Positions 53-23,884 of a stretch of 23,884 nt of DNA are shown here, piece after piece (position 1 is the stretch's first letter; the number at the start of each line of letters is the position of its first letter). The notes beneath the pieces were generated by a model. That model did no database searches. It was not told where the DNA came from and saw only the letters and a list, made by a program, of their open reading frames with translations. Source of the DNA: a virus; IMG/VR virus record IMGVR_UViG_3300023478_000005, positions 1 to 23,884 of that record. One strand, written 5' to 3'. Made by a program: the position numbers and the translations under genes.

Positions 53-94
53 ATCATCAAGATAGATATTCAGTATTGCCCTGTTGTGGGTGAG

Positions 95-124: not shown

Positions 125-150
125 TAGTTTATACCTCTGCTGGGTATCGC

Positions 151-824: not shown

Positions 825-825
825 T

Positions 826-1239: not shown

Positions 1240-1403
1240 GCATCTATCAGTTTGCATTAAGATCTTTGGGCTTGGGGGCTAGGGATATTGCCCCGCTAAA
1301 CACCCCTGTCTTTCATGGCAGATCTTATTTCGCTAGTCGAATAAGCTCTGGCACACGCCAAAGAAAATTGCGTAAGAAGGCACGGAGGGTTGGTCATGTC
1401 TGA
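1236..1403 (+). CDS. Small basic ORF of unknown function
   Basis: The 55-residue reading frame starts with an ATGA overlap to the holin stop and ends inside the start region of the zinc-finger gene, so it fills the gap between them exactly. The protein begins MSIYQFALRSLGLGARDIAP and ends with a strongly basic tail (RQRKLRKKARRVGHV). There is no clear transmembrane helix, lipobox or zinc motif. The upstream ribosome site is weak (GGGGCG). The tight packing argues for translation; no family is recognised. Confidence 0.5.
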   Translation: MSIYQFALRSLGLGARDIAPLNTPVFHGRSYFASRISSGTRQRKLRKKARRVGHV

Positions 1404-1617
1404 TGTCGCAGACCGAGCTGAACGATTTGAGTCACAACAACGTCAGCATGCTATTGATGCTATTCGACATCGAAAGCATGAAACCCCCGAACTAGATGAG
1501 CATGGTGAACGCATTTGCAAAAGCTGTGGTGATATCATCAAAAAGATGCGCTTGATGGCTCTGCCTCATGCAGTGCGCTGCGTGCCATGCCAAGAAGAAT
1601 GTGAGGGGTGTTCTTGA
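1396..1617 (+). CDS. TraR/DksA-family C4 zinc-finger protein
   Basis: The 73-residue protein has an N-terminal helical part rich in Gln, Arg and His, then the conserved zinc module CKSCG (Cys41, Cys44), the RLMALPHAVRC link, and CVPCQ (Cys62, Cys65). This is the short TraR type, lacking the long coiled coil of full DksA. Family members bind in the RNA polymerase secondary channel and mimic DksA with ppGpp. The start ATG is chosen because GGAGGG (1384-1389) lies six bases upstream; a TTG two codons earlier is less likely. It sits in the lysis and head operon, where Mu-like phages often carry such a gene. The effect on phage or host transcription is inferred. Confidence 0.9.
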   Translation: MSDVADRAERFESQQRQHAIDAIRHRKHETPELDEHGERICKSCGDIIKKMRLMALPHAVRCVPCQEECEGCS

Positions 1618-1943
1618 TGGATTATAAAGCAGCAAAGTTTTGGTTAGAAGTGGTCATGATGATGGTGAATATCGCTCTTTGGCTATTTGTTTGGAACAGC
1701 AATAAAAACAGAGTTACAAGCGAGAAGATCGAGGGGCTTGAGCAGGAAATTGAAAGCAAGTTGGAAGATCACGCAGAAAAACTGGGACGCATGGACGAGC
1801 GGTTGAAAGTTTCGATTGGGCATCCTGAATTGAAGTCTGTCTATGATCGCATGAATGGCATGCAAAAAGAACTCAGCGAAATTAATGGAAAAATGCACAC
1901 CTTGGATTTAATTCATGAGATGTTGTTGAAGGGAGATAAGTAA
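1617..1943 (+). CDS. DUF2730 (Mu gp25-like) membrane-anchored coiled-coil protein
   Basis: The 108-residue protein has one N-terminal membrane helix (about residues 9-28, FWLEVVMMMVNIALWLFVWN), then a charged heptad-rich region predicted to be coiled coil (EKIEGLEQEIESKLEDHAEKL) and a second helical segment near the C-terminus. Position and shape match the Mu gp25 family, between the zinc finger and the gp26-like gene. Function is unknown in Mu. The topology, short cytoplasmic N-terminus with a periplasmic coiled coil, is also that of an inner-membrane spanin, and no other spanin is visible here. The start overlaps the previous stop as TGATG. Confidence 0.8.
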   Translation: MDYKAAKFWLEVVMMMVNIALWLFVWNSNKNRVTSEKIEGLEQEIESKLEDHAEKLGRMDERLKVSIGHPELKSVYDRMNGMQKELSEINGKMHTLDLIHEMLLKGDK

Positions 1944-2239
1944 TGGGACTTGCGCAAGTGAAACAAGAAGACCGTCGTTTGCTCATATTAAAAGCTCTGG
2001 CAAGTGAGAGTGATTATGCTATTTCAGATATGGTTTTACGTGGTCTTTTAAGTGAATACGGACACAATGAATCTTCCGACACCATTCGGGTAGATATTGC
2101 CTGGCTTGAAGAGCAAGGACTGGTGACTTTTGAAAAAGTTAGTGTGACTACTGTAGCAACGATTACTGAGCGTGGGCTTGATGTAGCGAATGGCGCGGCA
2201 CGTGTGCCTGGCATTCGTCGCCCTCGCCCTGGTGAATAA
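1943..2239 (+). CDS. Mu gp26-like winged-helix protein (VpaChn25_0724 family)
   Basis: The 98-residue protein begins GLAQVKQEDRRLLILKALA and has the helix-turn-helix/wing pattern DTIRVDIAWLEEQGLVTFE, followed by a strand pair (VTTVATITERG) and a basic C-terminus (PGIRRPRPGE). This is the ArsR-like winged-helix family found directly before the small terminase in Mu-like phages. It may help in packaging or DNA recognition, but no function is established. It overlaps both neighbours by one base, showing a tightly coupled operon. Confidence 0.82.
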   Translation: MGLAQVKQEDRRLLILKALASESDYAISDMVLRGLLSEYGHNESSDTIRVDIAWLEEQGLVTFEKVSVTTVATITERGLDVANGAARVPGIRRPRPGE

Positions 2240-2814
2240 TGGCACCGCGTAGCAAGCTTGAGTCTTTGCCTGATGATTTGCTTGAGCAGCTTGATCAGCG
2301 ATTGTTGGCATCACACTATCATGATATTGATGGCCATCATAAATGGTTGCTTGCTGAACTTGATAGGCGTGAGATTGAATTACCTGAACCGATTAGCCGC
2401 TCGGCGGTTGGACGGTACAGCCGCATGCGTAAGCTGGAGCAACAATCTATCGGCGATAGCGTGCGTCAGATGCGAGCTATTCAACAAGAATTTGGGGATG
2501 ACCCCACATCGTTCTTGGTCAACGGAAATAACATGGCGCAGATGCTCGCATGGAAACGTGTGCAAGCAGCGATGAATGGTGATGTGGATGTGGATGAGGA
2601 GTTTCTGGCTAACATTTCTTTAGCAATGTCGCGCATGGCGAAAACAGCAGTGATCAATGATGATCGTGAACGTGATATCCGCGAAGATGAACGCAAGCTT
2701 GCAATGGAAGAAGCTGCTGCAAAAGTGGATGCCATCATTGAATCAAGCACTGGCTCCAACAGCGATACGATTACCAAATTGCGCGAAGCTATTGCAGGTG
2801 GCTTGAGTGCCTAA
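2239..2814 (+). CDS. Terminase small subunit, Mu gp27-like (DUF3486)
   Basis: The 191-residue protein starts with a basic segment and the LPDDLLEQLDQRL motif. The helix-turn-helix-like region SAVGRYSRMRKLEQQ follows near residues 54-70, then a long alpha-helical, charged C-terminal region. This pattern is typical of DUF3486, the Mu gp27 family, which acts as TerS to recognise DNA for headful packaging. It is followed directly by TerL with an 8-base overlap. In Mu, packaging starts near the left end from integrated copies; that this phage does the same is inference. Confidence 0.88.
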   Translation: MAPRSKLESLPDDLLEQLDQRLLASHYHDIDGHHKWLLAELDRREIELPEPISRSAVGRYSRMRKLEQQSIGDSVRQMRAIQQEFGDDPTSFLVNGNNMAQMLAWKRVQAAMNGDVDVDEEFLANISLAMSRMAKTAVINDDRERDIREDERKLAMEEAAAKVDAIIESSTGSNSDTITKLREAIAGGLSA

Positions 2815-4324
2815 TGTTGAAGCGGCTGCAAGCCCAATTCTTCTTAATTATCAGTCCAAGTGGATCTATGATAAAGTTGCAGTAAAGATTATTGAGAAAA
2901 GCCGACGCATTGGTTTGTCTTATGCTGAAGCAGCGGATGCAGTGCTTCATGCAGCTGATGATAGCGGCGGCAATGTTTATTATATTGCATTTTCCAAAGA
3001 TATGACCGAAGGCTTTATTCAGGATTGTGCAACCTGGGCGAAAGCCTACAACATGGCTTGTGGCGAAGTTCAAGAGGAAGTGCTTGTTGATGAAGACAGG
3101 GAAATCCTTACATACAAAATCAAGTTTGCTTCAGGTAAAATTATTCAAGCCTTATCATCCAGCCCGCGCAACTTGCGTTCTAAAGGTCGCCCCGGCGACA
3201 GGTTGATTATTGATGAGGCCGCGTTTATTGACGAGCTGGAAGAATTGCTCAAAGCAGCTATGGCCATGACCATGTGGGGCGGCTCTGTTCATATTATCAG
3301 TACGCACAACGGCGAAGACAACCCGTTTAATCAGCTTATCAATGATGTGCGGGCTGGCCGCTATGATTACTCATTGCATCGGGTGACATTGGATGATGCG
3401 TTGAATGACGGTTATTTCAAAAAGATTTGCGAAGTGACTGGCAAAGAATGGTCTGAAGAAGCGGAAGCTGCTTGGCGTGATACGATTGTAAAACGCTATC
3501 GTCCAAATGAGAATGAAGAGTTGTTTTGTGTGCCGTCAATGAGCGGCGGCAGCTACATGTCTCGCGCCTTGATTGAATCGTGCATGGTCGAAGCGCCAGT
3601 GGTTCGATTTGAGGGTACAGCAAGCTTCAATATTGCTCCAGAACCTGTGCGGCGAGCCGAGATGCAGGATTGGATCAATGATAACATCACACCTTTGTTA
3701 GCTCGGCTCGACAAGAATCGTCGACATGTGTTTGGTATGGATTTCGCGCGTTCGGGTGATATGTCCGATATTTCACCGATGGAAATTGGTGCAACGCTGC
3801 ATAATACAGTTCCGTTCCTTATTGAAATGCACAACGTGCCGCACAAGCAGCAAGAACAAGTTCTTTTTGCAATAGCGGATGGCTTACCTCGCCTCTGTGG
3901 CGGAGCAATTGATGCGGGCGGCAATGGATCATATATCGCAGAAGCTGCGACAGATCGTTATGGCAGCCTTATTGATGAAGTTCATTTTACAGAAAATTGG
4001 TATAGAGAAAACATGCCGCGCTACAAAGCAAAGTATGAAGACCGTTTAATCAGCATCCCAAAACATGATGATATTCTCGAAGATCATCGTGCCATTCGTA
4101 TGATCAATGGTGTACCTCGTGTGCCCAAGGGTAAGACGGATAAAAAAGGTGCAAGGCATGGGGATAGTGCAATCGCGATGGTGCTGGCAGATAACAAGAC
4201 GCTGAATACAGCAGCTCCGATTGAGTATATCACTGATGACACAGAAACATCGGACTTGTCGTTTTTAGGCGAAGCTGAAGGCATCAATCACAATAGTTTT
4301 ATAGGAGGCGGTTATGGTCGCTAA
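2807..4324 (+). CDS. Terminase large subunit, Mu gp28-like
   Basis: The 505-residue packaging motor has an N-terminal ATPase and a C-terminal RNase H-fold nuclease. The Walker A-like motif is KSRRIGLS (31-38), the variant used by Mu-type enzymes instead of GKT. Walker B is LIIDEAAFIDE (Asp136, Glu137), and the coupling motif is STHNG (165-169). The nuclease acidic residues are Asp312 (MDFARSGD), Asp369 (AIDAGGN) and Asp453 (HGDSA). The start is GTG at 2807 with AGGTGG seven bases upstream; the nearby ATG at 2814 is out of frame. It overlaps TerS by eight bases and the portal gene by eleven. Confidence 0.95.
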   Translation: MPNVEAAASPILLNYQSKWIYDKVAVKIIEKSRRIGLSYAEAADAVLHAADDSGGNVYYIAFSKDMTEGFIQDCATWAKAYNMACGEVQEEVLVDEDREILTYKIKFASGKIIQALSSSPRNLRSKGRPGDRLIIDEAAFIDELEELLKAAMAMTMWGGSVHIISTHNGEDNPFNQLINDVRAGRYDYSLHRVTLDDALNDGYFKKICEVTGKEWSEEAEAAWRDTIVKRYRPNENEELFCVPSMSGGSYMSRALIESCMVEAPVVRFEGTASFNIAPEPVRRAEMQDWINDNITPLLARLDKNRRHVFGMDFARSGDMSDISPMEIGATLHNTVPFLIEMHNVPHKQQEQVLFAIADGLPRLCGGAIDAGGNGSYIAEAATDRYGSLIDEVHFTENWYRENMPRYKAKYEDRLISIPKHDDILEDHRAIRMINGVPRVPKGKTDKKGARHGDSAIAMVLADNKTLNTAAPIEYITDDTETSDLSFLGEAEGINHNSFIGGGYGR

Positions 4325-5840
4325 AATCAATCCAGATTTAACTATGGAATTTGCATCCGATGATCCCAAGGTTGATATTACCAAAGCATTCTTAGGAAAT
4401 ATTCGTTTTAATGAAGACAAGCTTCTTCAGAAGCTGGGCGGCAATCTTGAGATATATGAGGATGTGTACCGTGATGATCGTGTATTGTCCTGCTTGCAAC
4501 AACGTATCAGTGCAGTGATATCAAAAGATTATGATGTGCGTGCCGGCAGTGATTCCGATTTAGACCAACGCGCAGCCGAAGCAGCTGAAGAGATGATTCG
4601 TTCCATACGCTTTGATCGGCTGACAGAAAAATTTTTATTGCAATCGTTGCTGAAAGGCTGGGGTGTTGCTGAAATCATCTGGAGCTTGAAAGGTAATATG
4701 GTATGGCCTGCTGCAATCAAAGTTAAAAAGAGCCAACGTTTTACCTTTGCACCACTCTATACAATTAAGCCTGTCAGCAATCAATATGCTGATGTGCGTA
4801 AGGCTCTAAGACTTGAAGCTGCTTTACGTTTAAAAACCCGTGCCAAGCCGATGGAGGGTGAGGCTTTATCCGAGCGGAAGTTTATTGTGCACACGATTGG
4901 CGCAATGGATGATGACAATCCGTTTGGCACAGGATTAGGCTTTTGGTTATATTGGCCAGTCCGCTTTAAGCGTGAAGGTATGAGCTTGTGGTTGGAGTTT
5001 ATTGATAAGTTTGGTTCTCCCACCGTCAAAGGCAAATATCCAACATCTGCATCCGAGCTAGAGAAACGCAAGCTTATGGAAGCTTTGCGCGCGCTTCGCT
5101 CCAACTCTGTAACGGCTATTCCCGATGGCATGGATGCAGAGTTGATTGCCGCTGCAAAATCTGGCATCAGCACGCATGAACAATTGATTGATCGCATGGA
5201 TCAAGCCATCACCACCGCCATTTTATCCCAAACCCTAACCACCAGCCAAGGCAATACAGGCAGCCAAGCCTTGGGCAAAGTGCATGAAGGTGTGAAAGAT
5301 GAAATTGCCAAATCCGATGCAGATATGTTGAGCGACTCATTGAATGAGACACTGATGCTGTGGTTTACAGAATATAATTTCCCTGGTGCAACACCACCGC
5401 ATGTATGGCGTGATATGTCTGACGTTGAAGATTTGGATGCCAAAGCCGAGCGTGATGAACGCCTTGCCAATGCTTCAGGGCGTACGCTTGATAAGCGTTA
5501 TACTGAAGAAGAGTATGGCATCAAGCTAAGTGATGAAAAGAAAACCGCAGCTGGCAATCCACCCACAGCCTCGTTTGCTGAGACATCAGCTACAGCGGCC
5601 GATGCTGTAGACAAGATTACAGATCAACTGGAGCGTGAAGCGGCTCCGATCACAGATAAGATGATTGACCAGGTGCGCGGGCTGATGGATGAGGTGGAAA
5701 GCTTGGAAGAGTTGGCTGATCGCATTCCTGAATTGTTGGGTGATATGGACACAACACAGATGACTGAGCTCATGGCAAAAGCTTTTGCCACTGCAAACCT
5801 CACGGGGCAGGTAGAAGTGGTGGATGAGAGCAATGCTTAA
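4314..5840 (+). CDS. Portal protein, Mu gp29-like (DUF935)
   Basis: The 508-residue protein is a full-length DUF935 portal, which forms the ring at the capsid vertex through which TerL threads DNA. Typical features are the N-terminal DDRVLSCLQQRISAV segment, the LKGWGVAEIIW core motif, and the central GTGLGFWLYWPVRFKREGMS region, followed by the EFIDKFGSPTVKGKYP motif. The C-terminal third is acidic and helical. AGGAGG at 4303-4308 sets the ATG start inside the end of TerL. It is followed by about 100 bases without an obvious gene before gpF. Confidence 0.95.
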   Translation: MVAKINPDLTMEFASDDPKVDITKAFLGNIRFNEDKLLQKLGGNLEIYEDVYRDDRVLSCLQQRISAVISKDYDVRAGSDSDLDQRAAEAAEEMIRSIRFDRLTEKFLLQSLLKGWGVAEIIWSLKGNMVWPAAIKVKKSQRFTFAPLYTIKPVSNQYADVRKALRLEAALRLKTRAKPMEGEALSERKFIVHTIGAMDDDNPFGTGLGFWLYWPVRFKREGMSLWLEFIDKFGSPTVKGKYPTSASELEKRKLMEALRALRSNSVTAIPDGMDAELIAAAKSGISTHEQLIDRMDQAITTAILSQTLTTSQGNTGSQALGKVHEGVKDEIAKSDADMLSDSLNETLMLWFTEYNFPGATPPHVWRDMSDVEDLDAKAERDERLANASGRTLDKRYTEEEYGIKLSDEKKTAAGNPPTASFAETSATAADAVDKITDQLEREAAPITDKMIDQVRGLMDEVESLEELADRIPELLGDMDTTQMTELMAKAFATANLTGQVEVVDESNA

Positions 5841-5944
5841 ATCGCCACAGCCGCATTTTGATAGGGTGAAACGAGCATTCACTAGACTAGCAGCACGAAA
5901 GTGCGCACCGACGCGTGGACACGGTGTTGACGAAAGAGCGTGTC
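5841..5944 (+). other. Short non-coding gap between portal and gpF genes
   Basis: No gene is supported here. The stretch holds a small hairpin, GCAC-GAAA-GTGC (5893-5904), and a weaker CACCG/CGGTG pairing just after it. The gpF frame is open from 5891 and has possible GTG starts at 5915 and 5924, so part of this gap could be coding. No good promoter is seen. Confidence 0.4.
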
Positions 5945-7204
5945 ATGCCTGTTAAGTACGGTTCGCTGCCCTTCGACGCGCAGATAGCATTCTTTCGCAA
6001 AAAACTGGCTTTGCCAACACGCGGATGGACAGATATTTGGCAAAGCAATCATGATCATGCATTTGTGGTGGCAGGTGCAACCAAGATGGCATTGGTTGAA
6101 GATATGCAAGCGGCGGTACAAAAAGCGATCGAGAAGGGAACCACGATTGCAGAGTTCCGCAAAGATTTTGATAAGGCTGTCAGCGATCACGGCTGGAGTT
6201 ATAACGGCTCGCGCGGCTGGCGCACGCGGTTGATCTACCAAACCAACCTACGCACATCGTATGCAGCAGGTCGGCACGAGCAGCTGCAAAAGTTGGAGTA
6301 CTGGCAATATCATCATTCCATTGGCGCAAACAATCCGCGTGAACAACACTTGGCTTGGGATGGTTTGGTGCTGCCAAAAGATGATCCATTCTGGAATACG
6401 CACTATCCGCCGAATGGCTGGGGTTGTCGTTGTTATGTCACAGGCATGAGCAAAACCCGGATGCAACAGAAAGGTTTGAGTGCAGGGAAATCACCCACTA
6501 TCCAAACTCAAAAAGTAAACGTCGGCGTATCAGGGCCCAATCCGCGCACCGTGGAAGTACCCGAAGGCATCAGCCCAGGCTTTGCTTATGCACCAGGGCA
6601 AAGTGCTTGGATGCATGCGTATGATCTCAAACAAGGGAAGCAGTCACCTTTCCCCTTTGAACAGAAAGATAATGGCTTATTTAAAAAGATCCCCGAACGC
6701 GGAGCTGTCGATTTAATGCTTAATCCTCGAGCCTTTCCAGAAAGTGAAATACTACCATCGATGCAGGCAGGTCAGGATGCCGCCTATGCAAAATTATTTT
6801 TGAAGAAGTTTAATGCTGATATTGGTAAGCCTGTCACATTTATTGATGCCAGTGGTGATGCGATGGTCATATCAGATGCCATGTTTAAGAATGATGAAGA
6901 TGCATGGAAAATGGGCAAAGGCACACGCAGCGCTCAGCTGAATATGCTCGCGGATTCTATCAAAAATCCTGACGAAATCTGGGGTTGGGTTGAATGGCAC
7001 AGGCGTGATAAAAAGGCAATCAGTAGCCGTGCTTATGTTAGCAGGTATATGGTTGGCACTGTGCAATGGCTTGCGATAACGGTCATGCAACGCAGTGAGG
7101 GGAAATGGCAAGGCACAACGGTACATACATCAAGCAGCTCGGATGATTTTAATCAAAAAGTTGAAAAGAACAGGCGTGGGGTTCGCTTGTATCGAAGACC
7201 ATAA
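5945..7204 (+). CDS. Mu gpF-like head morphogenesis protein fused to a PBECR2 nuclease-like domain
   Basis: The 419-residue protein has two parts. Residues 1 to about 215 are the MuF/SPP1 gp7-type minor head domain: MPVKYGSLPFDAQIAFFR at the start, then RTSYAAGRHEQ, and the hallmark DDPFWNTHYPPNGWGCRCY. Residues about 285-419 match the PBECR2 fold (phage Barnase-EndoU-ColicinE5/D-RelE-like nuclease), with the NPDEIWGWVEW, SRAYVSRYM and GVRLYRRP motifs. MuF proteins carrying C-terminal toxin-like domains are known in temperate phages. GTG at 5915 would add ten residues; the ATG is chosen because homologues start there. A clear terminator follows the stop. Nuclease activity is not shown. Confidence 0.9.
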   Translation: MPVKYGSLPFDAQIAFFRKKLALPTRGWTDIWQSNHDHAFVVAGATKMALVEDMQAAVQKAIEKGTTIAEFRKDFDKAVSDHGWSYNGSRGWRTRLIYQTNLRTSYAAGRHEQLQKLEYWQYHHSIGANNPREQHLAWDGLVLPKDDPFWNTHYPPNGWGCRCYVTGMSKTRMQQKGLSAGKSPTIQTQKVNVGVSGPNPRTVEVPEGISPGFAYAPGQSAWMHAYDLKQGKQSPFPFEQKDNGLFKKIPERGAVDLMLNPRAFPESEILPSMQAGQDAAYAKLFLKKFNADIGKPVTFIDASGDAMVISDAMFKNDEDAWKMGKGTRSAQLNMLADSIKNPDEIWGWVEWHRRDKKAISSRAYVSRYMVGTVQWLAITVMQRSEGKWQGTTVHTSSSSDDFNQKVEKNRRGVRLYRRP

Positions 7205-7206
7205 AA

Positions 7207-7234
7207 AAAAGGCTGCGTTCCAGCGCAGCCTTTT
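7207..7234 (+). terminator. Intrinsic terminator after gpF
   Basis: AAAAGGCTGCG (7207-7217) pairs with CGCAGCCTTTT (7224-7234) around a 6-base loop. The stem is GC-rich at the top and ends in a T-run. The A-tract on the left makes it usable on either strand, so it could also end leftward transcripts from the reverse-strand gene at 7405-7662. Confidence 0.85.
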
Positions 7235-7305
7235 GCTCTGTACGTCATTGCTGGGAGCTGGAACCCTCTAGCGTACATAAGATACCCCAAGTTTAGGAGA
7301 TAATC

Positions 7306-7524
7306 ATGGCAAGCACAACCTATCTGGAAAGAATCATTATGCATGCTGTTGCAAAAGAATTGCAATGCCAAAAAGAAATAGATGATGCAGCCTTTAAAAT
7401 TGACCTATTGGCGCAATGCAAGGGTCACTTCTGTAAGTGCTGTTGCAACTTGCGGCGCAGTCGTACCCATAACCACAGAAGCCGTATCAAGTTTACTGCA
7501 AAAAGCCGATATTTCCGTGGTTGA
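7306..7524 (+). CDS. Small ORF with a strong ribosome site, 3' part antisense to another gene
   Basis: The ATG at 7306 follows AGGAG (7295-7299) at good spacing. The first 33 residues (MASTTYLERIIMHAVAKELQ onward) look like an ordinary helical protein. From 7405 onward the frame runs antisense to the reverse-strand gene and its composition becomes odd (GHFCKCCCNLRRSRTHNHRSR). Either this is a short gene whose 3' end was overwritten by insertion of the reverse gene, or the ORF is a remnant. No family is recognised. Confidence is low that the full 72 residues are functional. Confidence 0.35.
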   Translation: MASTTYLERIIMHAVAKELQCQKEIDDAAFKIDLLAQCKGHFCKCCCNLRRSRTHNHRSRIKFTAKSRYFRG

Positions 7525-7662
7525 GAGTATGTCTTTTTGCCGTAATAGATTAAATAGCTCTGTGAGCATAACAAGATGAGCCGATCGCGTGGCATTGGCT
7601 TGCTCTTCCGCCACGGCTCTCGCCAACTGTTGAATCTGTTCTAGCATTGCTTGATTGACCAT
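7405..7662 (-). CDS. Reverse-strand small helical protein, candidate moron
   Basis: The 85-residue protein (starting MVNQAMLEQIQQLARAVAEE) has balanced composition for a soluble alpha-helical protein, rich in Ala, Leu, Gln and Glu. On its own strand GGAGA (complement of 7671-7675) lies eight bases before the ATG. It runs opposite to the whole late operon and lies in an island between a terminator (7207-7234) and the gpG ribosome site. Reverse-oriented genes of this kind in late operons are often lysogenic-conversion genes (morons). No family, membrane segment or zinc motif is recognised, so the function is unknown. Confidence 0.62.
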   Translation of the reverse strand: MVNQAMLEQIQQLARAVAEEQANATRSAHLVMLTELFNLLRQKDILSTTEISAFCSKLDTASVVMGTTAPQVATALTEVTLALRQ

Positions 7663-7733
7663 ATTTTAGATCTCCATGATATGAGGGATAAGGTACACAC
7701 CAAACAAATAATATAATATAAAAAGGAGGTAAT

Positions 7734-8183
7734 ATGGCAGGTGCAAGTGAGTTCATATCCATTGATGTAGATGATAAGCAAATGCAGCAAGTGTTTGGTC
7801 GGTTACAGCAGGCTGGTCAGAACATGGATCCCGTGTTTGCCGATATTGGCGAGTATCTATTAGAATCAACCAAACAACGATTTGTTGATCAGGTTGATCC
7901 CGATGGCCTGCCTTGGCAGCCGCTCTCTGACAATAGCCACAAAGAAAAGAATGCCGATAAGATCTTGCTGGAGCATGGCGGGCTATTGGATTCATTACAC
8001 TACACCAGTGATGCCCAGCAAGTCGAGTTCGGTACGAATCTTATTTATGGCGCAACACATCAGTTTGGTGATGATGCTCGCAATATTCCAGCCCGCGCAT
8101 TTTTAGGAATATCCGTAGAGGATGAGCTTATCATCCTTGATTTAGCAGAGGCATTTCTTCTGGAACACCTTGCGCCTGTGTAA
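7734..8183 (+). CDS. Virion morphogenesis protein, Mu gpG-like (Phage_tail_S family)
   Basis: The 149-residue protein belongs to the family of Mu gpG and P2 gpS, needed for tail completion or head-tail joining. Recognisable parts are FADIGEYLLESTKQRFVDQV, the DGLPWQPLS motif, the ILLEHGGLLDSLHY motif, YGATHQFGD, and the C-terminal IPARAFLGIS. AAGGAGG at 7723-7729 sets the start. It follows the reverse-strand island and precedes the second late leader, the order seen for F-G-I in Mu. Confidence 0.92.
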   Translation: MAGASEFISIDVDDKQMQQVFGRLQQAGQNMDPVFADIGEYLLESTKQRFVDQVDPDGLPWQPLSDNSHKEKNADKILLEHGGLLDSLHYTSDAQQVEFGTNLIYGATHQFGDDARNIPARAFLGISVEDELIILDLAEAFLLEHLAPV

Positions 8184-8209
8184 CGCTGTTTCAATAGTTG
8201 TAATGCATG

Positions 8210-8239
8210 TTGACAGCATTGCTAACCTTGTTCTACGGT
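8210..8239 (+). promoter_or_regulatory. Possible sigma70-type promoter before the protease operon
   Basis: TTGACA (8210-8215) matches the -35 consensus fully. An 18-base spacer leads to TACGGT (8234-8239), a weak -10 with three of six matches. A weak -10 behind a good -35 could mean activator dependence. If used, the start site would be near 8246 and dyad copy 2 would lie in the 5' untranslated leader. Confidence 0.3.
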
Positions 8240-8260
8240 AGACTCATCAAATACATACAT

Positions 8261-8284
8261 CTCGCCTGAATCACTTCAGGCGGA
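8261..8284. promoter_or_regulatory. Dyad element, copy 2 (upstream of the protease gene)
   Basis: CTCGCCTGAA and CTTCAGGCGGA flank a 3-base centre (TCA). Twenty-one of 24 bases match copy 1 at 29-52, and only the centre differs while the palindromic arms are conserved. Both copies have an ATAC tetramer a few bases upstream. Conserved arms with a free centre are typical of a protein-binding dyad or a conserved RNA hairpin. Function is inferred. Confidence 0.6.
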
Positions 8285-8315
8285 CTAGCTCACGTAAAGC
8301 CGCACAATTCGCTGC

Positions 8316-9449
8316 ATGACGACAGCAAAAACACCCCCACATATTCATGCATTCTCGGCTGGCGAGCATATCACCGCCGCTGGCGACAAAGTCCGCATTA
8401 CTGCGAATGATCTAAAAGCATCCGCAGCAGCCTACAATCCTGAACTTCATGAAGCTCCGATTGTGATTGGGCATCCCACTGGTGAATCCCCTGCCTACGG
8501 CTGGATTGAATCTTTCGCTGTGCAAGGCAATGATTTCATCGCACAGCCTACGCAAGTCAACCCAGATTTTGCCGAACTGAATAATTCAGGCGCATTCAAA
8601 AAGCGCTCGATGTCTTTTTACCATCCCGAAAACAAAGCCAACCCAGCCCCCGGCGTTTGGTATCCGCGCCATCTTGGATTTTTAGGTGCGCAACCCCCGG
8701 CGGTTAAGGGTCTGCGCGATTTCAATTTCCAAGAAGATGATGGCGATAGCATCACCATTGAATTTGGCGAATGGGAAGATCGGGTAGAAGCAGGCGTATT
8801 CCGCAGCTTGCGCGAATGGATTCTTGCCAAGTTTGGCAAAGAAGATGCCGATGCCGCCATCCCAAGTTGGGATGTTGATCTTCTTCAAGAAGCTGCTGTA
8901 AAACAAAAAGAAGAGCCCACAACTTCATTTTCAGAAAATAATCCAACGGAGGACACTATGACCCGAGAAGAAAAAGCGGCGGCGCAAGCCGAGCTTGATA
9001 CACAAAAAGCATTGCTGGATACGCAAGCAGCCGAATTTGCCGAGCGTGAAACAGCATTGGCAAAGCGTGAGCAAGCAGCGCATCGCACAACCTGCGTAGA
9101 ATTCACTGAAAGCCTAGTGGCAGATGGCAAAGTATTGCCCGCTCAAAAAGATAATCTTATCGAATTTATGGCAGGTCTGGAACATGTTGAGACTGTCGAA
9201 TTCGGTGAAGGTGATGGCACAGTCGCTAAAACACAGCTGAAATTTATGCAGGATTACCTAGCAGCGCAACCGAAGGTTGTTGCTTTTGGCGAGCATGATC
9301 AAAGCGATGGCAAATCCATTGATTTGGATGATGCGCCCGCATTGGCAAAAGCCGCTGTGGAATTCCAAGAATCCGAGGCTGCTGCAGGCCGAGCCATCTC
9401 AGTCACTCAGGCTGTTGCTCATGTTAAAAAATCGCAAGGGGAAAACTAA
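8316..9449 (+). CDS. Phage prohead protease with C-terminal scaffold, Mu gpI-like
   Basis: The 377-residue protein belongs to the Mu I family of head maturation proteases. The protease part (about residues 1-170) shows the conserved PIVIGHPTGESPAYGWIES motif with His53 and the FKKRSMSFYHP motif with the candidate nucleophile Ser98 or Ser100. From residue 215 the protein is a charged helical scaffold-like region (EEKAAAQAELDTQ onward) that is also made separately from an internal start. The protease would trim scaffold and capsid during head maturation. The ATG is the only reasonable start, as a TAA lies seven codons upstream, yet no Shine-Dalgarno site is visible. Confidence 0.93.
   Translation: MTTAKTPPHIHAFSAGEHITAAGDKVRITANDLKASAAAYNPELHEAPIVIGHPTGESPAYGWIESFAVQGNDFIAQPTQVNPDFAELNNSGAFKKRSMSFYHPENKANPAPGVWYPRHLGFLGAQPPAVKGLRDFNFQEDDGDSITIEFGEWEDRVEAGVFRSLREWILAKFGKEDADAAIPSWDVDLLQEAAVKQKEEPTTSFSENNPTEDTMTREEKAAAQAELDTQKALLDTQAAEFAERETALAKREQAAHRTTCVEFTESLVADGKVLPAQKDNLIEFMAGLEHVETVEFGEGDGTVAKTQLKFMQDYLAAQPKVVAFGEHDQSDGKSIDLDDAPALAKAAVEFQESEAAAGRAISVTQAVAHVKKSQGEN
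8958..9449 (+). CDS. Nested in-frame scaffold protein, Mu gpZ-like
   Basis: An internal ATG in frame with the protease (residue 215) is preceded by CGGAGGA (8947-8953), a much better ribosome site than that of the full-length gene. The 163-residue product would be mostly helical, with a coiled-coil-like repeat (ALLDTQAAEFAERETALAKR). In Mu the scaffold gpZ is encoded by the 3' end of gene I in the same way. The scaffold guides capsid assembly and is then degraded by the protease. Translation from this start is inferred from the ribosome site and the Mu precedent. Confidence 0.78.
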   Translation: MTREEKAAAQAELDTQKALLDTQAAEFAERETALAKREQAAHRTTCVEFTESLVADGKVLPAQKDNLIEFMAGLEHVETVEFGEGDGTVAKTQLKFMQDYLAAQPKVVAFGEHDQSDGKSIDLDDAPALAKAAVEFQESEAAAGRAISVTQAVAHVKKSQGEN

Positions 9450-9826
9450 TGCACAATCCAGGATTGATTAAAAACTTACTCGCGGCTGCCGTCATCGCGC
9501 CATACCGCATCGTTAAATTTGGTGTAGATGATAACCATGTTGTTCAAAGCGCAGCAGCTACCGATGCATTGATTGGTGTTACTGGCCAGCTCGGGGCACT
9601 TGCAGCAGAGAGTCGAGTTGATATCACGCTTAGTGGCGTGGTCTATGTTGAATACGGCGGTGTCGTAACACGCGGCGATCCGCTCACCTCCGATGCCAAG
9701 GGCATGGCTGTTGTGGCAATACCAGCTGCCGGCGTGAACAACCGCATCATCGGCTTTGCAATGGTTTCTGGTGTGCTCGGAGATGTCGGCAGTGTCGATA
9801 TCAGCAAAAACAAAATTCAGGGATAA
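9449..9826 (+). CDS. Capsid cement/decoration protein (DUF2190-like)
   Basis: The 125-residue protein is rich in Val, Ala and Gly with a beta-rich pattern. It has segments such as VDITLSGVVYVEYGGVVTRG followed by DPLTSDAKGMAV, and a C-terminal IIGFAMVSG typical of DUF2190-type cement proteins. These trimerise on the capsid surface and stabilise the shell. It sits between the protease/scaffold and the major capsid gene, the standard place. The start overlaps the protease stop (TAATG). Confidence 0.82.
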   Translation: MHNPGLIKNLLAAAVIAPYRIVKFGVDDNHVVQSAAATDALIGVTGQLGALAAESRVDITLSGVVYVEYGGVVTRGDPLTSDAKGMAVVAIPAAGVNNRIIGFAMVSGVLGDVGSVDISKNKIQG

Positions 9827-9837
9827 GGGAAAAACAA

Positions 9838-10911
9838 ATGAAAAAATCTAATAGTATTATAACATTCGCACTGCTGGCCGTTGTGGTAGTAGCGATCGGC
9901 GGGGTAGACCCAGCCAGCGCATCTGGCTCGATAGATTTTGGTGGGCTTGGTGGTGTTAGTCTAGCTGCATTGGCATTTGGCGGGATCACCAATTCACCAA
10001 TGCCAATCATCCCGGAACTTACCGCTATTGCGATAGGTTACAAAAACAAGAAGATGATTGCTGATGATGTGTTACCGATTGTGCCAGTTGGTAAACAGGA
10101 TTTCACATACTTCGAATACGCACTGGAAGATGGTTTTACAGTGCCTGATACAAAAGTTGGCCGCACCTCAAAACCCAACGAAGTAGAATTTTCAGGCACA
10201 TCGAAAACAGAATCAACAGAAGATCACGGCTTGGATTATCCGATTCCACAGCGTGATATTGACAATGCTCTGCCGAATCACAATCCGCTTGGACGCGGCG
10301 TGGAAAAAGTCATGAACTTGATCGAACTTGATCGTGAGATTCGTGTATCAAGCATGGTGTTTGATCCAGCTAATTTTGCCGCCAATAATAAGCAGGCTCT
10401 AGCTGGGACTTCGAAGTACACCGATCCAACATCTACACCGATCACGGATATTCGTACTGCTCTCGATGCTATGTTGCTGCGGGCCAACAAAATGACAATT
10501 GGTCGCTTGGCCTTCTCAGCGCTTCAAACGCATCCGGATATCGTTAAAGCTACACATCGCAATTCTGGCGATTCTGGTGTAGCTGCGCGCCAAGCCATTG
10601 CTGAACTCTTCGAACTCGAAGATATTTATGTAGGTGAAGCGCGTGTGAACACTGCTCGCAAAGGCCAAGTGCTAGCTTTGCAACGTGCATGGGGTCCGCA
10701 TATCTGCTTGCACTATACCGATAATATGGCTGATACGAATGGTGGCCAGGCATCGTTTGGTATAACTGCCTCTTTCGGCGGCCGCCGTGCCGGCTCTCTC
10801 CCTGATTCGAATATTGGTCTCGATGGTGGTCAGCGTGTTCGTGCCGGTGAGTCCGTCAAAGAACTACTGATTGCTCCTGATCTGGGTTATTTGATCTCCA
10901 ATGTAGTTTAA
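9838..10911 (+). CDS. Major capsid protein with a signal-peptide-like N-terminus
   Basis: The 357-residue protein resembles the major capsid family found in Mu-like and related phages. Supporting features are its place after scaffold and cement, and core motifs such as ADDVLPIVPVGKQDFTYFEY, the ALPNHNPLG segment, a TALDAMLLRANKMTIGRLAF helix, and a C-terminal jelly of Gly and Val. HK97 fold is expected. The first 28 residues (MKKSNSIITFALLAVVVVAI, then DPASA) are basic, strongly hydrophobic and end in an Ala-Ser-Ala site like a secretion signal, which is odd for a capsid protein. AAGGG lies upstream of this ATG; an alternative ATG near 9999 lacks a good ribosome site. Confidence 0.88.
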   Translation: MKKSNSIITFALLAVVVVAIGGVDPASASGSIDFGGLGGVSLAALAFGGITNSPMPIIPELTAIAIGYKNKKMIADDVLPIVPVGKQDFTYFEYALEDGFTVPDTKVGRTSKPNEVEFSGTSKTESTEDHGLDYPIPQRDIDNALPNHNPLGRGVEKVMNLIELDREIRVSSMVFDPANFAANNKQALAGTSKYTDPTSTPITDIRTALDAMLLRANKMTIGRLAFSALQTHPDIVKATHRNSGDSGVAARQAIAELFELEDIYVGEARVNTARKGQVLALQRAWGPHICLHYTDNMADTNGGQASFGITASFGGRRAGSLPDSNIGLDGGQRVRAGESVKELLIAPDLGYLISNVV

Positions 10912-10941
10912 GAATTAGAGCACAATAAAAACAAGAACGTT

Positions 10942-10974
10942 AAAAGGGAGGGAGAAGAACTCTTCCTCCCTTTT
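10942..10974 (+). terminator. Terminator-like stem-loop after the capsid gene
   Basis: AAAAGGGAGGGA (10942-10953) pairs with TTCCTCCCTTTT (10963-10974) with one G-T pair and a 9-base loop. It ends in a T-run. This may cap transcripts for the highly expressed head genes, with partial read-through into gp35 and beyond. Confidence 0.8.
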
Positions 10975-10994
10975 CTAACCCTAGGAGGATAACA

Positions 10995-11351
10995 ATGTCA
11001 AACTGCCTAATGCCAAACTATCTTGTTAAACAAGCTGTAAAACATGATGGAAAAAGCTATGTCGATGGCGATACAATTAAGTTGCCAGAAGCTGAAGCAC
11101 AAGAACTGATTGATGCTGGAATACTTGGTCAGGCGACCAAGCCATCAAAATCAGAAAAGCCTTCTGATGCAGTGCTGCTTCAACAAATTATTGATGCAGT
11201 GGCATCGCTGGATAAAGATGACGCTGATTTGTGGACAAACAGCGGCAAAGCTCAAGTGGCAGCAATTGAAGCCGTGCTTGGGTTTGATATATCTGCAAAA
11301 GATCGTGATGCAGCTTTAGCATCAATTGAAAAAACTGGGGCTGCTGAGTAA
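10995..11351 (+). CDS. Mu gp35-like protein
   Basis: The 118-residue protein has an N-terminal strand-rich module (YLVKQAVKHDGKSYVDGDTI, then a short AQELIDAGIL helix), a charged linker, and a C-terminal helix pair with DLWTNSGKAQVAAIEAVLGF that resembles HeH/LEM-like modules in gp35-type proteins. In Mu this gene follows the major capsid gene, and its exact role is not settled. AGGAGG at 10983-10988 sets the start, six bases before the ATG, right after the terminator-like stem-loop. Confidence 0.78.
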   Translation: MSNCLMPNYLVKQAVKHDGKSYVDGDTIKLPEAEAQELIDAGILGQATKPSKSEKPSDAVLLQQIIDAVASLDKDDADLWTNSGKAQVAAIEAVLGFDISAKDRDAALASIEKTGAAE

Positions 11352-11354
11352 GTC

Positions 11355-11783
11355 ATGTCCTATGCTACGCGACAAGGAATGATTGACCGGTTTGGTAAAG
11401 CTGAGCTTATACAGCTTACGGATCGTGCTACGCCAACTACGGACATGATTGATGATACCGTGCTTAATGCGGCTTTGAATGATGCTGACGCTGAAATCAA
11501 TAGCTACATTCAGGCACGGTATCCCTTGCCGCTGGCATCCATACCTTTGCAGATTTCCCGCATTGCACGTGATATTGCGCGTTATTATTTGTATGATGAC
11601 AGTGTCACGGAAACGGTTGAAAAACGCTACAAAGAAGCCCTTAAAACACTCGAACAAATAGCCAAAGGTATTGTCCACCTGGGTCTTGATCCAGTGGGTG
11701 ATACAACGCCATCAAGTGCATCACCAGAAACATCAGCTAATGCACCTGTATTTTCGCAAGAACGTCTCGCGGGTTATCGCTAA
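11355..11783 (+). CDS. Mu gp36-like head-tail connector (DUF1320)
   Basis: The 142-residue protein matches the DUF1320 family (Mu gp36). The pattern is MSYATRQGMIDRFGKAELIQ at the start, then ALNDADAEINSYIQARYPLPL and the ISRIARDIARYYLYDD core helix. These are helical gp6-like adaptors at the head-tail interface. The gene starts four bases after the gp35 stop, and its stop overlaps the gp37 start (TAATG). Confidence 0.9.
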   Translation: MSYATRQGMIDRFGKAELIQLTDRATPTTDMIDDTVLNAALNDADAEINSYIQARYPLPLASIPLQISRIARDIARYYLYDDSVTETVEKRYKEALKTLEQIAKGIVHLGLDPVGDTTPSSASPETSANAPVFSQERLAGYR

Positions 11784-12331
11784 TGCCAACTTTTGAAGCA
11801 TACGAAAATGCTATGGCAGCCGCTTTAAAGACAGTTGCAGGCATTGATTCTGTGGATGAATACGCAGCTGCTTTGGATGCAGCAGCTCTTAAGAAAGTAG
11901 CACCAAGAAATGCTGGCCTTGTGATTGTTCCGCTGGGTGGTCAGCCAGACCGAGCGCAGCCAAGCACAGGTCAGCTAGCCTTTTCTTGTCGCACAGGTGC
12001 ATTCATTGTATCTCGCAATGCACGTGGGGCTACAAACCGAAGCATAGCTGCCAGAACTTTGGCACGTAATGTTATGCTGTTTATTCACCAAAATCATTGG
12101 GGTCTCGCGGATACCCATGCCGCAGTCATCGAGAAACTTGAAAATCGTTCATCGGGGGCTGCTGATAAAGCTGGTTATGCGGTTTGGCTGGTCGTATGGA
12201 AACAAACTATTTACCTCGATCTTGAGCCTGTTGATACATCGGTTGTGCCAACCGCTGTATTTGCATCGCGAGCGCCTGATATTGGCGTAGGCCACGTTGC
12301 AGATTACCAGCATGTGGATACTTCAATATGA
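11783..12331 (+). CDS. Mu gp37-like protein (DUF1834)
   Basis: The 182-residue protein matches the DUF1834 family at the position of Mu gp37, directly after gp36 and before the tail. It has an N-terminal helix (FEAYENAMAAALKTVAGI), a central region with Gly and Pro turns, and the C-terminal GYAVWLVVWKQTIYLDLE stretch. A role as tail terminator or head-tail joining protein is plausible. It is the last Mu-type gene; the next gene is P2-type, so the mosaic joint lies here. Confidence 0.82.
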   Translation: MPTFEAYENAMAAALKTVAGIDSVDEYAAALDAAALKKVAPRNAGLVIVPLGGQPDRAQPSTGQLAFSCRTGAFIVSRNARGATNRSIAARTLARNVMLFIHQNHWGLADTHAAVIEKLENRSSGAADKAGYAVWLVVWKQTIYLDLEPVDTSVVPTAVFASRAPDIGVGHVADYQHVDTSI

Positions 12332-12855
12332 GTGCCTCTTTCACTATCGCTGAACTTGAACGCCGCCTACTCAATATGATCCGCTTCGGTATGATTACAT
12401 CGGTTGATTTGAACTCGGCAACATGCCGTGTAAAACTTGATGATACGCACACCACAGGTGATTTGCCTTGGTCTGTCCAGCGAGCAGGTAATGTGCGCAC
12501 CTGGTCACCGTTGAGTGTGGGTGAACAAGTCATGATTATTTCACCCGCAGGCGATTTAACACAAGGCGTTGTGGTGCCTTCGCTGTATCAAAATGCACAT
12601 CCTGCTCCATCAAACAAGGCAAATGAGCATATCACGGATTATGGTGATGGAACGGTTATCACATACGATACCACTGCCCATAAATTGCGCATTGATTGCG
12701 CATCCACGGTTGAAGTGATTGCGCCCAAGGTAGATTTGGGCGGTGTGGGCGGGGCAAAAGTTGCGCGAGTGGGTGATTTGGTTGCGGTTGGAGCTGGTTC
12801 ATCAGCTGGCAACTGGCCCATTTTTTCTGGCTCCGACATCGTGAGCGCAACCTGA
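12328..12855 (+). CDS. Baseplate assembly/spike protein, P2 gpV-like
   Basis: The 175-residue protein starts with an OB-fold domain (MIRFGMITSVDLNSATCRVK, then LPWSVQRAG and WSPLSVGEQVMIISPAGDL), the classic gpV pattern. A short beta-helix-like needle follows (TVITYDTTAHKLRIDCASTV, then VEVIAPKVDLGG). It would trimerise to form the membrane-piercing tip of the contractile tail. The ATG overlaps the gp37 stop (ATGA), so the junction between Mu and P2 modules is translationally coupled. Confidence 0.92.
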   Translation: MSASFTIAELERRLLNMIRFGMITSVDLNSATCRVKLDDTHTTGDLPWSVQRAGNVRTWSPLSVGEQVMIISPAGDLTQGVVVPSLYQNAHPAPSNKANEHITDYGDGTVITYDTTAHKLRIDCASTVEVIAPKVDLGGVGGAKVARVGDLVAVGAGSSAGNWPIFSGSDIVSAT

Positions 12856-13190
12856 TGCAAGGCATGGACAAAAATACAGGTAAAACCATTTCAGGGCGTG
12901 CTCACTTGAAGCAGCGCTTGGATGATATTCTGACCACTCCGCTGGGTTCACGCGTCATGCGCCGCGATTACGGCTCTCGTTTACCACGTCTTGTGGATCG
13001 CCCTATCAATGCATCGCTCAAACTTGATTTGGTGCATGCGACTGCTGAAGCGATTGCGCGTTGGGAAAATGAATTGATTCTGAAGCGGGTACGATTATCA
13101 CAAACCGAACCTGAACATCTTATGCTTGACCTCGAAGGCGTTGAAACCATCAGCGGTGAGCCCATTCGTATTGAGGGCATTTCGTTATGA
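12855..13190 (+). CDS. Baseplate wedge protein, P2 gpW-like (gp25 family)
   Basis: The 111-residue protein matches the gp25/GPW family: HLKQRLDDILTTPLGSRVMR, then RRDYGSRLPRLVDRP and a C-terminal beta pair. It is the conserved wedge component that starts sheath polymerisation in contractile injection systems. It overlaps both gpV and gpJ. A second ATG three codons downstream (12864) is a possible alternative start. Confidence 0.93.
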   Translation: MQGMDKNTGKTISGRAHLKQRLDDILTTPLGSRVMRRDYGSRLPRLVDRPINASLKLDLVHATAEAIARWENELILKRVRLSQTEPEHLMLDLEGVETISGEPIRIEGISL

Positions 13191-14080
13191 GTAAACTAAC
13201 AGACTTAAAAGCGCCCGATGTCATTGAAGCCCTGGACTATGAATCTATATTGGTAAAAATTAAAGCTGACTATTTGGCGGCAAACCCTGCTTATACAGCG
13301 GATGTTGAATCTGATCCTGTGGTTAAAATGATGGAGACATGTGCTTATCGTGAGCTGGGTGTTCGTCAGCGTGTGAATGATGCTGCCAGGGCTTTATTGC
13401 TTGCTGAAGCAGTCGGCACCGATTTGGATCATATTGCATTCACTTATTATCAGGGCTTAACTCGATTACTCGTTGATCCAGGCGATGCCGCAGCCATACC
13501 GCCTATTCCACCTATTTATGAATCAGATGATCGTCTGCGTGAGCGCTGCGCATTATCTTTGTATGCATACAGCACAGCTGGACCACGTGGAGCCTATAAA
13601 TTTTATGCCATGACAGCATCGGCAGATGTCAAAGATGTGGATGTTGCAAAACACACCCCAGCACCAGGCGATGTGACTTTAACACTGTTATCAACCGTGG
13701 GCGATGGTGTAGCTGATCAGGCATTGATTGATTTGGTTCAGCTCGCTTTGGATGCGGAAGATAAACGCCCGCTAAACGACACGCCGTTCACACAAACTGC
13801 GACGATTAAACCTTGGACGCTCGATGCATCATTGATTTGTTATCCCAATGCCAATACCACATTGGTATTGCAGCTTGCCAATGCCGCTGCAACGAAGTTT
13901 GTGGCAGATCACCATGCGCTTGATCATGACATCAATATCTCTGCGCTTGATGCCGCATTGCATGTGCCCGGTGTGCAACGTGTGCAAATAACATCCCCCG
14001 CTGCGGATCTGATAATAAGCAATATTGAAGCTCCGTTTAACACAGCCATTGCGATCGCAATCACAGGAACAGCAACATAA
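13187..14080 (+). CDS. Baseplate protein, P2 gpJ-like
   Basis: The 297-residue protein matches P2 gpJ. It has the N-terminal DYESILVKIKADYLAANPAY motif, then AYRELGVRQRVNDAARALLL, and the YESDDRLRERCALSLYAYST segment followed by the GPRGAYKFYAM motif. It forms the baseplate wedge with gpW and gpI and holds the tail fibres. It overlaps gpW by four bases and gpI by one. Confidence 0.94.
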   Translation: MSKLTDLKAPDVIEALDYESILVKIKADYLAANPAYTADVESDPVVKMMETCAYRELGVRQRVNDAARALLLAEAVGTDLDHIAFTYYQGLTRLLVDPGDAAAIPPIPPIYESDDRLRERCALSLYAYSTAGPRGAYKFYAMTASADVKDVDVAKHTPAPGDVTLTLLSTVGDGVADQALIDLVQLALDAEDKRPLNDTPFTQTATIKPWTLDASLICYPNANTTLVLQLANAAATKFVADHHALDHDINISALDAALHVPGVQRVQITSPAADLIISNIEAPFNTAIAIAITGTAT

Positions 14081-14646
14081 TGGCGAGTAAATCTTTACTC
14101 CCTCCGAATGCTACGGCTCTTGAGCATGCTGCGGATGCTGCAATGGCGCGCATTGCCGATGTGAATGTGCCAATCCGTGATCTATGGAATCCTGATCTAT
14201 GCCCTGAAGCAGTACTGCCGTGGCTCGCATGGGCGTTATCGGTTGAGCCTTGGGATGCGGACTGGGCAGCATGGCAACAGCGTAAAGTGATCAAGGCATC
14301 GATTCCAGTTCATCGCATAAAAGGTACGGTGGCAGCGGTAAAACAAGTGCTTGCTGCTGCGGGCTTTCCTGATGCTGTTGTACTCGAAGGTTTGCACCGC
14401 GCAACATACAATGGTCAGGCATCATACAATGGCAGCTATGTGCATGGTGACCCTATTGCTTGGGCAACGTATCGCATTGTTTTGCCGCGTCCGATGACCA
14501 ACCCGCAAGCCTCATTTGTTCGTGCCCTGCTTACTGAAGCAGACCGAGCAGTGTCTAAATTAATGGGCTTGGAATACACCCAAGTCCCCAATACTTATAA
14601 CGGCGCGTCACTTTATGACGGTGCTTATAATCATGGAGTTGCATAA
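14080..14646 (+). CDS. Tail protein I, P2 gpI-like
   Basis: The 188-residue protein matches phage tail protein I: LLPPNATALEHAADAAMARI at the start, the PWLAWALSVEPWD motif, and VHRIKGTVAAVKQVLAAAGF. The C-terminus carries a repeated Tyr-Asn-Gly pattern (ATYNGQASYNGSY and NTYNGASLYDGAYNHG), a likely fibre-contact region. It joins the baseplate to the tail fibre encoded next. Confidence 0.93.
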   Translation: MASKSLLPPNATALEHAADAAMARIADVNVPIRDLWNPDLCPEAVLPWLAWALSVEPWDADWAAWQQRKVIKASIPVHRIKGTVAAVKQVLAAAGFPDAVVLEGLHRATYNGQASYNGSYVHGDPIAWATYRIVLPRPMTNPQASFVRALLTEADRAVSKLMGLEYTQVPNTYNGASLYDGAYNHGVA

Positions 14647-15882
14647 ATGCCAAATCTTCCTGAAACCGCAAACCAGTTTGATGCTGGTGTTTACCAACTT
14701 GAAACCAACGACCCGGTTGTCGGTGGTGCTGCTGGCACATCAAACAAACAGGCTATTGCTCTAGCCAATCGCACCGCGTTCTTAAAAGCGGCAATTGATG
14801 CTGTGATTGCGGGGGAAGGTGGCCTTCCAGATAATACTGATCCGACATTATTGTATGCAGCCATTCAATCTGCAATTCAATCTGCAATTGGTGCTGGGAC
14901 AATCACTACAGCTATCAATGCGCATATTGCTGCCAATGATCCGCATGCGCAATACACCACCAATGCCGAAGTATTGAAATTGATTGCAGCCAATGTACCA
15001 ATCCCACCCACTGCACCTGTGCAATCAGTGGCGGGCAAAAAAGGCGCGGTAGTCATAACAAAAGCGGATGTTGGTTTAGCTAACGTGTCGAATACGTCTG
15101 ACATGTCGAAGCCTATCAGCACCGCTCAAAATGCTAAGTTTAATGCGGAATATTTACGTACACAAATGCCCCAGGGCTTGCGTCGAAAATCAACCTACCT
15201 AGGCACCGATTATAATTTTTCATTGTGGAGAGATGGGCTTGAGGATGGGCATTATGATGTTTATCTATCAGTAGCGCAAAATGGTCTGCCTCGCGGATAT
15301 TGGTATATTGATGTGCAGCGGCATTATAACGACATACCTAGCAATAATTGGCGCACGATTCGGGCGATTGGATTTGGGGCTGGAAACAAAGCCAATGAGA
15401 TTTATCAGTCAACGTGTGCTCTCGGAACATGGACACCGTTTGAAAAGATTGCCAAGCATAGCGCGGGAGAAATCTTTGCTTTTGCCGGCGCGGCAATACC
15501 TTCGGGCAGTATTATTTGCAATGGCGCGGCAATCTCGCGGAGCACGTATGCAGCATTGTTTGCTGTGATTGGCACAACGTTCGGAGCTGGCAATAACACA
15601 ACAACATTTAATCTCCCTGATTTGCGCGGTGAATTTATTCGCGGCCTAGATGCCGGGCGTGGTATTGATGTAGGACGTGTTTTGGGTAGCTGGCAGCCAG
15701 ATGTGATTAAGTCACATACCCACACGGTGAACGGATTCGCGCTAACCATGCCAGGCAACCAAATTCCTTGGTATAACTGGGGTAATCGTGCAATGGCTAA
15801 TAATTCACCGACAACAACAGCGACCGGCGGCACAGAAACACGCCCGCGCAATGTCGCTATGAATTACTGCATTAAGTATTAG
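14647..15882 (+). CDS. Tail fibre protein with C-terminal collar domain
   Basis: The 411-residue protein begins with the fibre N-terminal module PETANQFDAGVYQLETNDPV and ANRTAFLKAAID, which attaches to the baseplate. A middle region includes a KADVGLANVSNTSD motif. The end (about residues 274-345) is a phage tail collar domain: FAFAGAAIPSGSIICNGAAI, then FNLPDLRGEFIRGLDAGRG. The last residues, NVAMNYCIKY, are the usual collar ending. It recognises the host surface. GGAG at 14635-14638 precedes the ATG. No diversity-generating repeat or invertase site is seen. Confidence 0.92.
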   Translation: MPNLPETANQFDAGVYQLETNDPVVGGAAGTSNKQAIALANRTAFLKAAIDAVIAGEGGLPDNTDPTLLYAAIQSAIQSAIGAGTITTAINAHIAANDPHAQYTTNAEVLKLIAANVPIPPTAPVQSVAGKKGAVVITKADVGLANVSNTSDMSKPISTAQNAKFNAEYLRTQMPQGLRRKSTYLGTDYNFSLWRDGLEDGHYDVYLSVAQNGLPRGYWYIDVQRHYNDIPSNNWRTIRAIGFGAGNKANEIYQSTCALGTWTPFEKIAKHSAGEIFAFAGAAIPSGSIICNGAAISRSTYAALFAVIGTTFGAGNNTTTFNLPDLRGEFIRGLDAGRGIDVGRVLGSWQPDVIKSHTHTVNGFALTMPGNQIPWYNWGNRAMANNSPTTTATGGTETRPRNVAMNYCIKY

Positions 15883-23646: not shown

Positions 23647-23773
23647 AAGGAAGCAAATCATCTGAACTGAGGTGATAGATGGTTCACTATGTGAAACGTA
23701 GTTACAAATACAGTAATTGACTTAATTTGTGTTTATCGCACCTTTACGGCATAAATTATCGCGCGCGGCATCA
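23647..23773. other. Non-coding right-terminal region of the prophage
   Basis: No gene is seen between the gpD stop and the junction. It holds a dyad TTCAC-TAT-GTGAA (23683-23695) and, at the very end, two TTATCGC repeats (23733-23739 and 23756-23762) spaced 23 bases apart, with related CGGCAT motifs. It ends in CA. This arrangement fits transposase-binding end sites like those of Mu. Confidence 0.65.
23733..23773. repeat. Putative transposase-binding repeats at the right end
   Basis: Read inward from the end (reverse strand), the sequence is TGATGCCG-CGC-GCGATAA, then TTATGCCG-TAAAGGT-GCGATAA. The GCGATAA units are 23 bases apart. From memory, the Mu right end reads similarly near its tip (a TCG-TGCGCCGC-TTCA pattern). 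Assignment to an A-protein site is inferred. Confidence 0.58.
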
Positions 23774-23884
23774 GGTAATGATTAGCGACTCCCCCAACTG
23801 TTCCATCGCATAATTCTGTTCTTTCAAAGAGCTTTCACGCACATCAATTTCATACAGCATCGTATTAAATGATGAACCAAGATC
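23771..23884 (-). pseudogene. Interrupted host gene, HAMP-like region of a sensor protein
   Basis: On the reverse strand an open frame enters from the window edge and reads DLGSSFNTMLYEIDVRESSL, then KEQNYAMEQLGESLIIT, followed by TGA. The F-N-x-M-L motif with the following charged helix is typical of the end of a HAMP domain and the coiled coil after it, as in histidine kinases, diguanylate cyclases and chemoreceptors. The stop codon TGA is formed by the first bases of the prophage end, so the protein is cut off where an output domain would be expected. The 5' part of the gene is beyond the window. Confidence 0.68.
23774..23778. repeat. Candidate 5-bp target duplication
   Basis: GGTAA is the first five host bases after the predicted prophage end. 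Mu-like phages duplicate five bases, so the same pentamer should abut the left end, which is outside the window. Confidence 0.4.

Follow-up and report, generated by a model that had tools for sequence, protein, structure and literature searches.

Right end of a Mu-like transposable phage inserted in a zetaproteobacterial hybrid sensor kinase gene

The window, which is the whole stretch of 23,884 nucleotides of viral DNA that we analysed, very probably (probability about 0.95) carries the right-hand boundary of a Mu-like transposable phage that has inserted in a zetaproteobacterial dCache-HAMP-PAS hybrid histidine kinase gene. Four observations support such a junction: intact orthologues of the host gene, a host frame that stays in phase, a conserved phage end, and a sister insertion at another site. 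In the proposed mechanism, the transposase would join the 5'-TG phage ends to staggered cuts in host DNA, and the insertion would leave the kinase cut just inside its PAS domain. The features of the window are as follows.

1–23773, plus strand: late (right) part of a B3/Tn552-type transposable phage, from Pfam hits and 99.5% identity to a sister contig
23728–23773, minus strand: phage right terminus, 5'-TGATGCCGCGCGCGATAATTTATGCCGTAAAGGTGCGATAA read inward, with GATAA-type sites at end positions 14 and 37
23733–23739, plus strand: inner copy of the TTATCGC repeat
23756–23762, plus strand: outer copy of the TTATCGC repeat, 23 bp from the inner one
23771–23773, minus strand: TGA at the phage terminus, a premature stop in the host frame
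23774–23779, no strand assigned: predicted 6-bp target-site duplication GGTAAT, from two relatives (G341 and G037) and published B3
23774–23884, minus strand: host flank with the HAMP end and first PAS residues of the interrupted hybrid sensor kinase, equivalent to orthologue residues 344–380 of 863

The interrupted kinase gene

Host sequence occupies 111 nt of the window. On the minus strand, an open frame of 37 codons spans positions 23884–23774 and encodes DLGSSFNTMLYEIDVRESSLKEQNYAMEQLGESLIIT (...GESLIIT), followed directly by TGA. The sequence-only reading had taken this frame for a HAMP-type sensor gene interrupted by a prophage. The nearest relatives of the transposase and the terminase (for the terminase, a Mariprofundaceae MAG) indicated the host class, and Zetaproteobacteria genomes were then searched with the peptide. 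One of these genomes, G265, holds an intact orthologue that is identical to the host flank at 34 of 37 residues and 95 of 111 nt, with ten synonymous and three non-synonymous codon differences.

The orthologue has 863 residues and comprises dCache, HAMP (305–353), PAS (376–476), HisKA, HATPase and REC domains, as assigned by Pfam on the protein of locus L156, where dCache_1 and HisKA score slightly under the gathering cut-offs. Of these domains, the window itself contains just the end of HAMP and the beginning of PAS. Past the junction, the orthologue continues from ...GESLIIT into NQHGVIEYVNPSF; the cut follows the residue equivalent to 380, within the first residues of PAS. Five other aligned orthologues also run past IIT into PAS. 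The interruption of the gene is thereby upheld, and the outcome that would have spoken against it, a natural end at ESLIIT in relatives, is not what they show: they continue into PAS-HisKA-HATPase-REC.

The truncated product would retain its sensor, membrane and HAMP portions but be left with none of the phosphorylating ones. We infer that the interrupted allele has lost its kinase output, and the change in host signalling suggested earlier as a possible consequence is a fair inference.

The host frame is in phase up to the exact base at which the phage end begins, as had been claimed, and its TGA is the complement of phage bases 23773–23771, the terminal three of the phage end. In the frames entering the right end, the first stop begins 1, 50 or 39 nt in; in those entering the left end, it begins 1, 11 or 39 nt in. 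Three outcomes are possible, of which the in-frame TGA is one, and it needs no special explanation. A dedicated stop-codon device was considered and rejected, as all six frames that enter the phage ends meet a stop in the first 52 nt.

Phage ends, gene content and target duplication

Read directly from the sequence, plus-strand phage DNA terminates in CA at 23773. The boundary at 23773/23774 is firm because independent phages share the same end at the same base. The right end of a prophage in the MAG G036 equals that of the window over the first 15 bases, and that of a complete relative, G341, matches at 14 of the first 15; further related-phage ends were obtained from G341 and G247. A pattern screen with TGATGC[CG]GCGCGCGA[AT]AA returned 64 IMG/VR records. 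The second, inner repeat is present in 57 of them (56 distinct flanks and one duplicate), in which the right-terminus motif TGATGC[CG]GCGCGCGA is thus recurrent. GATAA-type sites occupy end positions 14 and 37 in seven phage ends, and these paired sites with 23-bp spacing are presumed to be transposase sites. The boundary, the phage right end and the 23-base spacing of the TTATCGC repeats at 23733 and 23756 had all been placed accurately by the sequence-only reading, whose coordinates are correct throughout when checked against the sequence and its frames.

Phage genes in the window all run rightward, the last ending at 23646. They include late functions recognised by Pfam: terminase, Mu-type portal, MuF, head, baseplate J and collar/tail fibre proteins, together with a contractile sheath, FII tube, tape measure and gpD. 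The long non-contractile tail of the flexible-tailed (siphovirus) B3 group was looked for and not found in the window, where the sheath and FII tube proteins are present instead. A search with the baseplate-hub protein gave one distant relative among viral contigs and no match among genome contigs. The MuF head protein (window 5915–7204) carries a C-terminal PBECR2 (Barnase-EndoU-ColicinE5/D-RelE-like nuclease) domain by Pfam, and is thus a MuF protein fused to a toxin-like module.

The rest of the phage is found on a sister IMG/VR contig of 27,749 bases (L049/G029), 99.5% identical over window positions 1–15035, which carries the leftward early block and the left end. The early block encodes a 576-aa transposase and an AAA ATPase (AAA_22), neither of which is on the window itself. 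This transposase is ~32% identical to PM105 transposase A over 96%; Pfam gave no rve hit on it. In L068, the transposase and ATPase lie on the minus strand and the late genes on the plus strand, so the early operon is inverted. The window phage thus belongs to the B3/Tn552-type transposable phages and has a contractile tail. Among related contigs, partial and full copies of the transposase gene stand side by side in G247 (L182, 1648–4576), and a reverse-transcriptase-like frame is suggested by eye near the end of L071 (G002); an RNA-directed DNA polymerase is also annotated in MuM16-1, a Mu-like phage of Shewanella.

On the sister contig, the left end lies at base 114 (TGATCAGAGGTGAGATAACAATAGGGGATAGAGTGCGATAA), and the phage left-end sequence to be expected at a left junction is TGATCAGAGGTGAGATAA. 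Together, the left end TGATCAG... and the right end ...GGCATCA form 5'-TG...CA-3' termini. Read inward, the sister's left end and the window's right end both begin with TGAT and have their GATAA-type sites at 14 and 37. Their identity of 23/45 is weak alone: it ranks the true position first among the opening 400 bases of L068, but not contig-wide. The left end of a further related prophage, in the MAG contig G253, is identical to that of the sister contig over the first 13 bases.

The 113-base host flank of the sister contig encodes LLHNRQEGLLQQRDQWKQQVGQLSLEMERQQHTIQHQ and matches a GGDEF-EAL protein of G265 at 68%, the gene being cut just before GGDEF. The window phage and its near-identical sister therefore sit in different host genes: one host group carries the same phage population at two sites, as expected of a transposing phage. 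The left junction of the window insertion and the 3' remainder of the kinase gene were not found in the records reached with exact left- and right-end DNA patterns, nor was the insertion met there a second time.

The relatives also bear on the length of the target-site duplication, for which the pentamer GGTAA had been proposed. In the complete relative in G341, where both ends are present, ACTCTA stands in each flank, a match of 6 bp and not 5; once one ACTCTA is removed, an IS1595-type transposase frame reads through (...VGYS/KHFRVN..., with a slash at the junction). In G037 (Marinobacterium litorale), the 6-bp duplication GCAAGA accompanies the pair of ends that scored best. A 5-bp duplication, tried on three relatives, gave no convincing pair, and G338 and G339 yielded no convincing pair of ends at any duplication length. 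Phage B3 is reported to duplicate 6 bp and Mu 5 bp (PMC8705779). At the window insertion, the hexamer GGTAAT is thus predicted in place of the pentamer, by analogy with G341, G037 and published B3.

Origin of the junction and choice of target

The junction could also derive from lytic replicative transposition or from packaged virion DNA and not from a stable lysogen, in which case the truncation never mattered to a living cell line; we hold this to be a genuine possibility, although the less probable one. In virions of Mu-type phages, the packaged phage DNA has host DNA attached at either end (PMC5977238). The flanks are only 111 nt in the window and 113 nt in the sister contig, whose phage sits at another site, and several metagenomic right-end loci break ~80–130 nt past the terminus, as if most copies differ beyond it. 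Against this, short flanks are also expected where an assembler stops at the meeting point of inserted and empty alleles, and two MAG contigs (G036 and G253) hold related prophages with at least 1 kb of host flank, which means that stable insertions do occur among phages of this class.

Among the right-end matches L228–L290, six (L233, L237, L247, L273, L279 and L284) end 123–127 nt beyond the phage terminus, which may be an effect of the assembler k-mer size at points where inserted and empty alleles come together. Short flanks suggest a junction that is not common to all copies in the sample, and are compatible with both packaged DNA and a polymorphic lysogen.

The position of the insertion in a sensor gene raises the question of target choice. 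Of the six insertions in the zetaproteobacterial or sister set, three fall within signalling genes: the window kinase, the GGDEF-EAL gene and, in G253, a hybrid kinase. The G253 phage (L183, minus strand, bases before 7188) sits in the linker that precedes the REC domain in that kinase, which is 39% identical to the C-terminus of the G265 kinase. In L260, whose flank ends at the right-end match, and in L290, a transposable phage with the same right terminus interrupts the HAMP domain of a further dCache-HAMP sensor gene. The other targets are SpoU rRNA methylase, IS1595, IS66 and IS3-type transposase, ThiF, EamA and aminotransferase V genes.

A preference for signalling genes is possible, and surviving insertions will be enriched in dispensable genes. 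It is nevertheless highly unlikely that transposable phages of marine iron oxidisers accumulate preferentially in sensory genes such as hybrid kinases and GGDEF-EAL genes, as a recurrent, possibly selected, switch-off of environmental sensing by the host in iron mats. The stronger proposal, that the phage specifically targets sensory genes and that its in-frame terminal TGA evolved as a means to cut short and silence host signalling, we consider very improbable indeed. It could draw on the three insertions out of six and on the related phage within the HAMP domain in L260, but the remaining targets are diverse, B3-like phages are reported to lysogenise at random sites (PMC4777764), and every frame at both ends meets a stop within 52 nt anyway; moreover, identifiable targets are few and their sampling is not random. 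Targeting of signalling genes was therefore set aside as unsupported.

A chimeric assembly, in which an unrelated kinase fragment was joined to a phage end, might be suspected since the junction is on a single contig. We judge it exceedingly improbable: the phage sequence stops at exactly the base where other phages independently place the terminus, and the flanks of the window and of the sister both match genes of one zetaproteobacterial genome, G265. Finally, that the host gene ends naturally at ESLIIT with the phage merely adjoining, for which the sole point is that the open frame stops there, has practically no likelihood and is rejected by the orthologues, which extend ~480 residues more through PAS, HisKA, HATPase and REC, while the TGA sits within the conserved phage terminus.

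Relation to known transposable phages

As the end of a transposable phage in a host gene, the junction can be set against known systems. The phage shares with the Pseudomonas phage B3/PM105 group a homologous transposase (~32%), a leftward early operon opposite the late genes, TG...CA ends, a 6-bp target duplication (here in relatives) and insertion in varied genes. In contrast to the long flexible tails of B3 and PM105, its tail is contractile (sheath, FII tube, gpD), and its host class, the Zetaproteobacteria, is different.

The B3-like two-arm organisation with myovirus tail genes and the TG-CA ends are shared with contractile-tailed, B3-organised Leptospira prophages (PMC8705779) and with BcepMu-like myoviruses, and a 6-bp scar, here in relatives, is shared with the same Leptospira set (PMC8705779); both comparisons are by description only, and the hosts of these phages are other than that of the window phage. 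With Enterobacteria phage Mu, it has in common the Mu-type portal and MuF, the replicative-transposition style and the disruption of host genes. Mu, however, duplicates 5 bp and has early and late genes in the same direction, whereas the relatives of the window phage duplicate 6 bp and have the early block inverted.

Mu-like phages with zetaproteobacterial hosts have been reported earlier, from iron mats (PMC8114936) and as a prophage of M. ferrooxydans PV-1 (PMC3179512), the host being assigned by CRISPR spacers in one case (PMC8114936, PMC3179512); their likeness to the window phage, beyond the shared host class, is by description only.

For a wide group of transposable phages, the exact right terminus (TGATGC[CG]GCGCGCGA) is now fixed, and the motif could be used for locating phage ends and insertion sites in metagenomes. 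Disruption of a host gene is the expected behaviour for a transposable phage of known kind. Host DNA at two separate junctions ties this uncultured phage lineage to zetaproteobacterial hosts.
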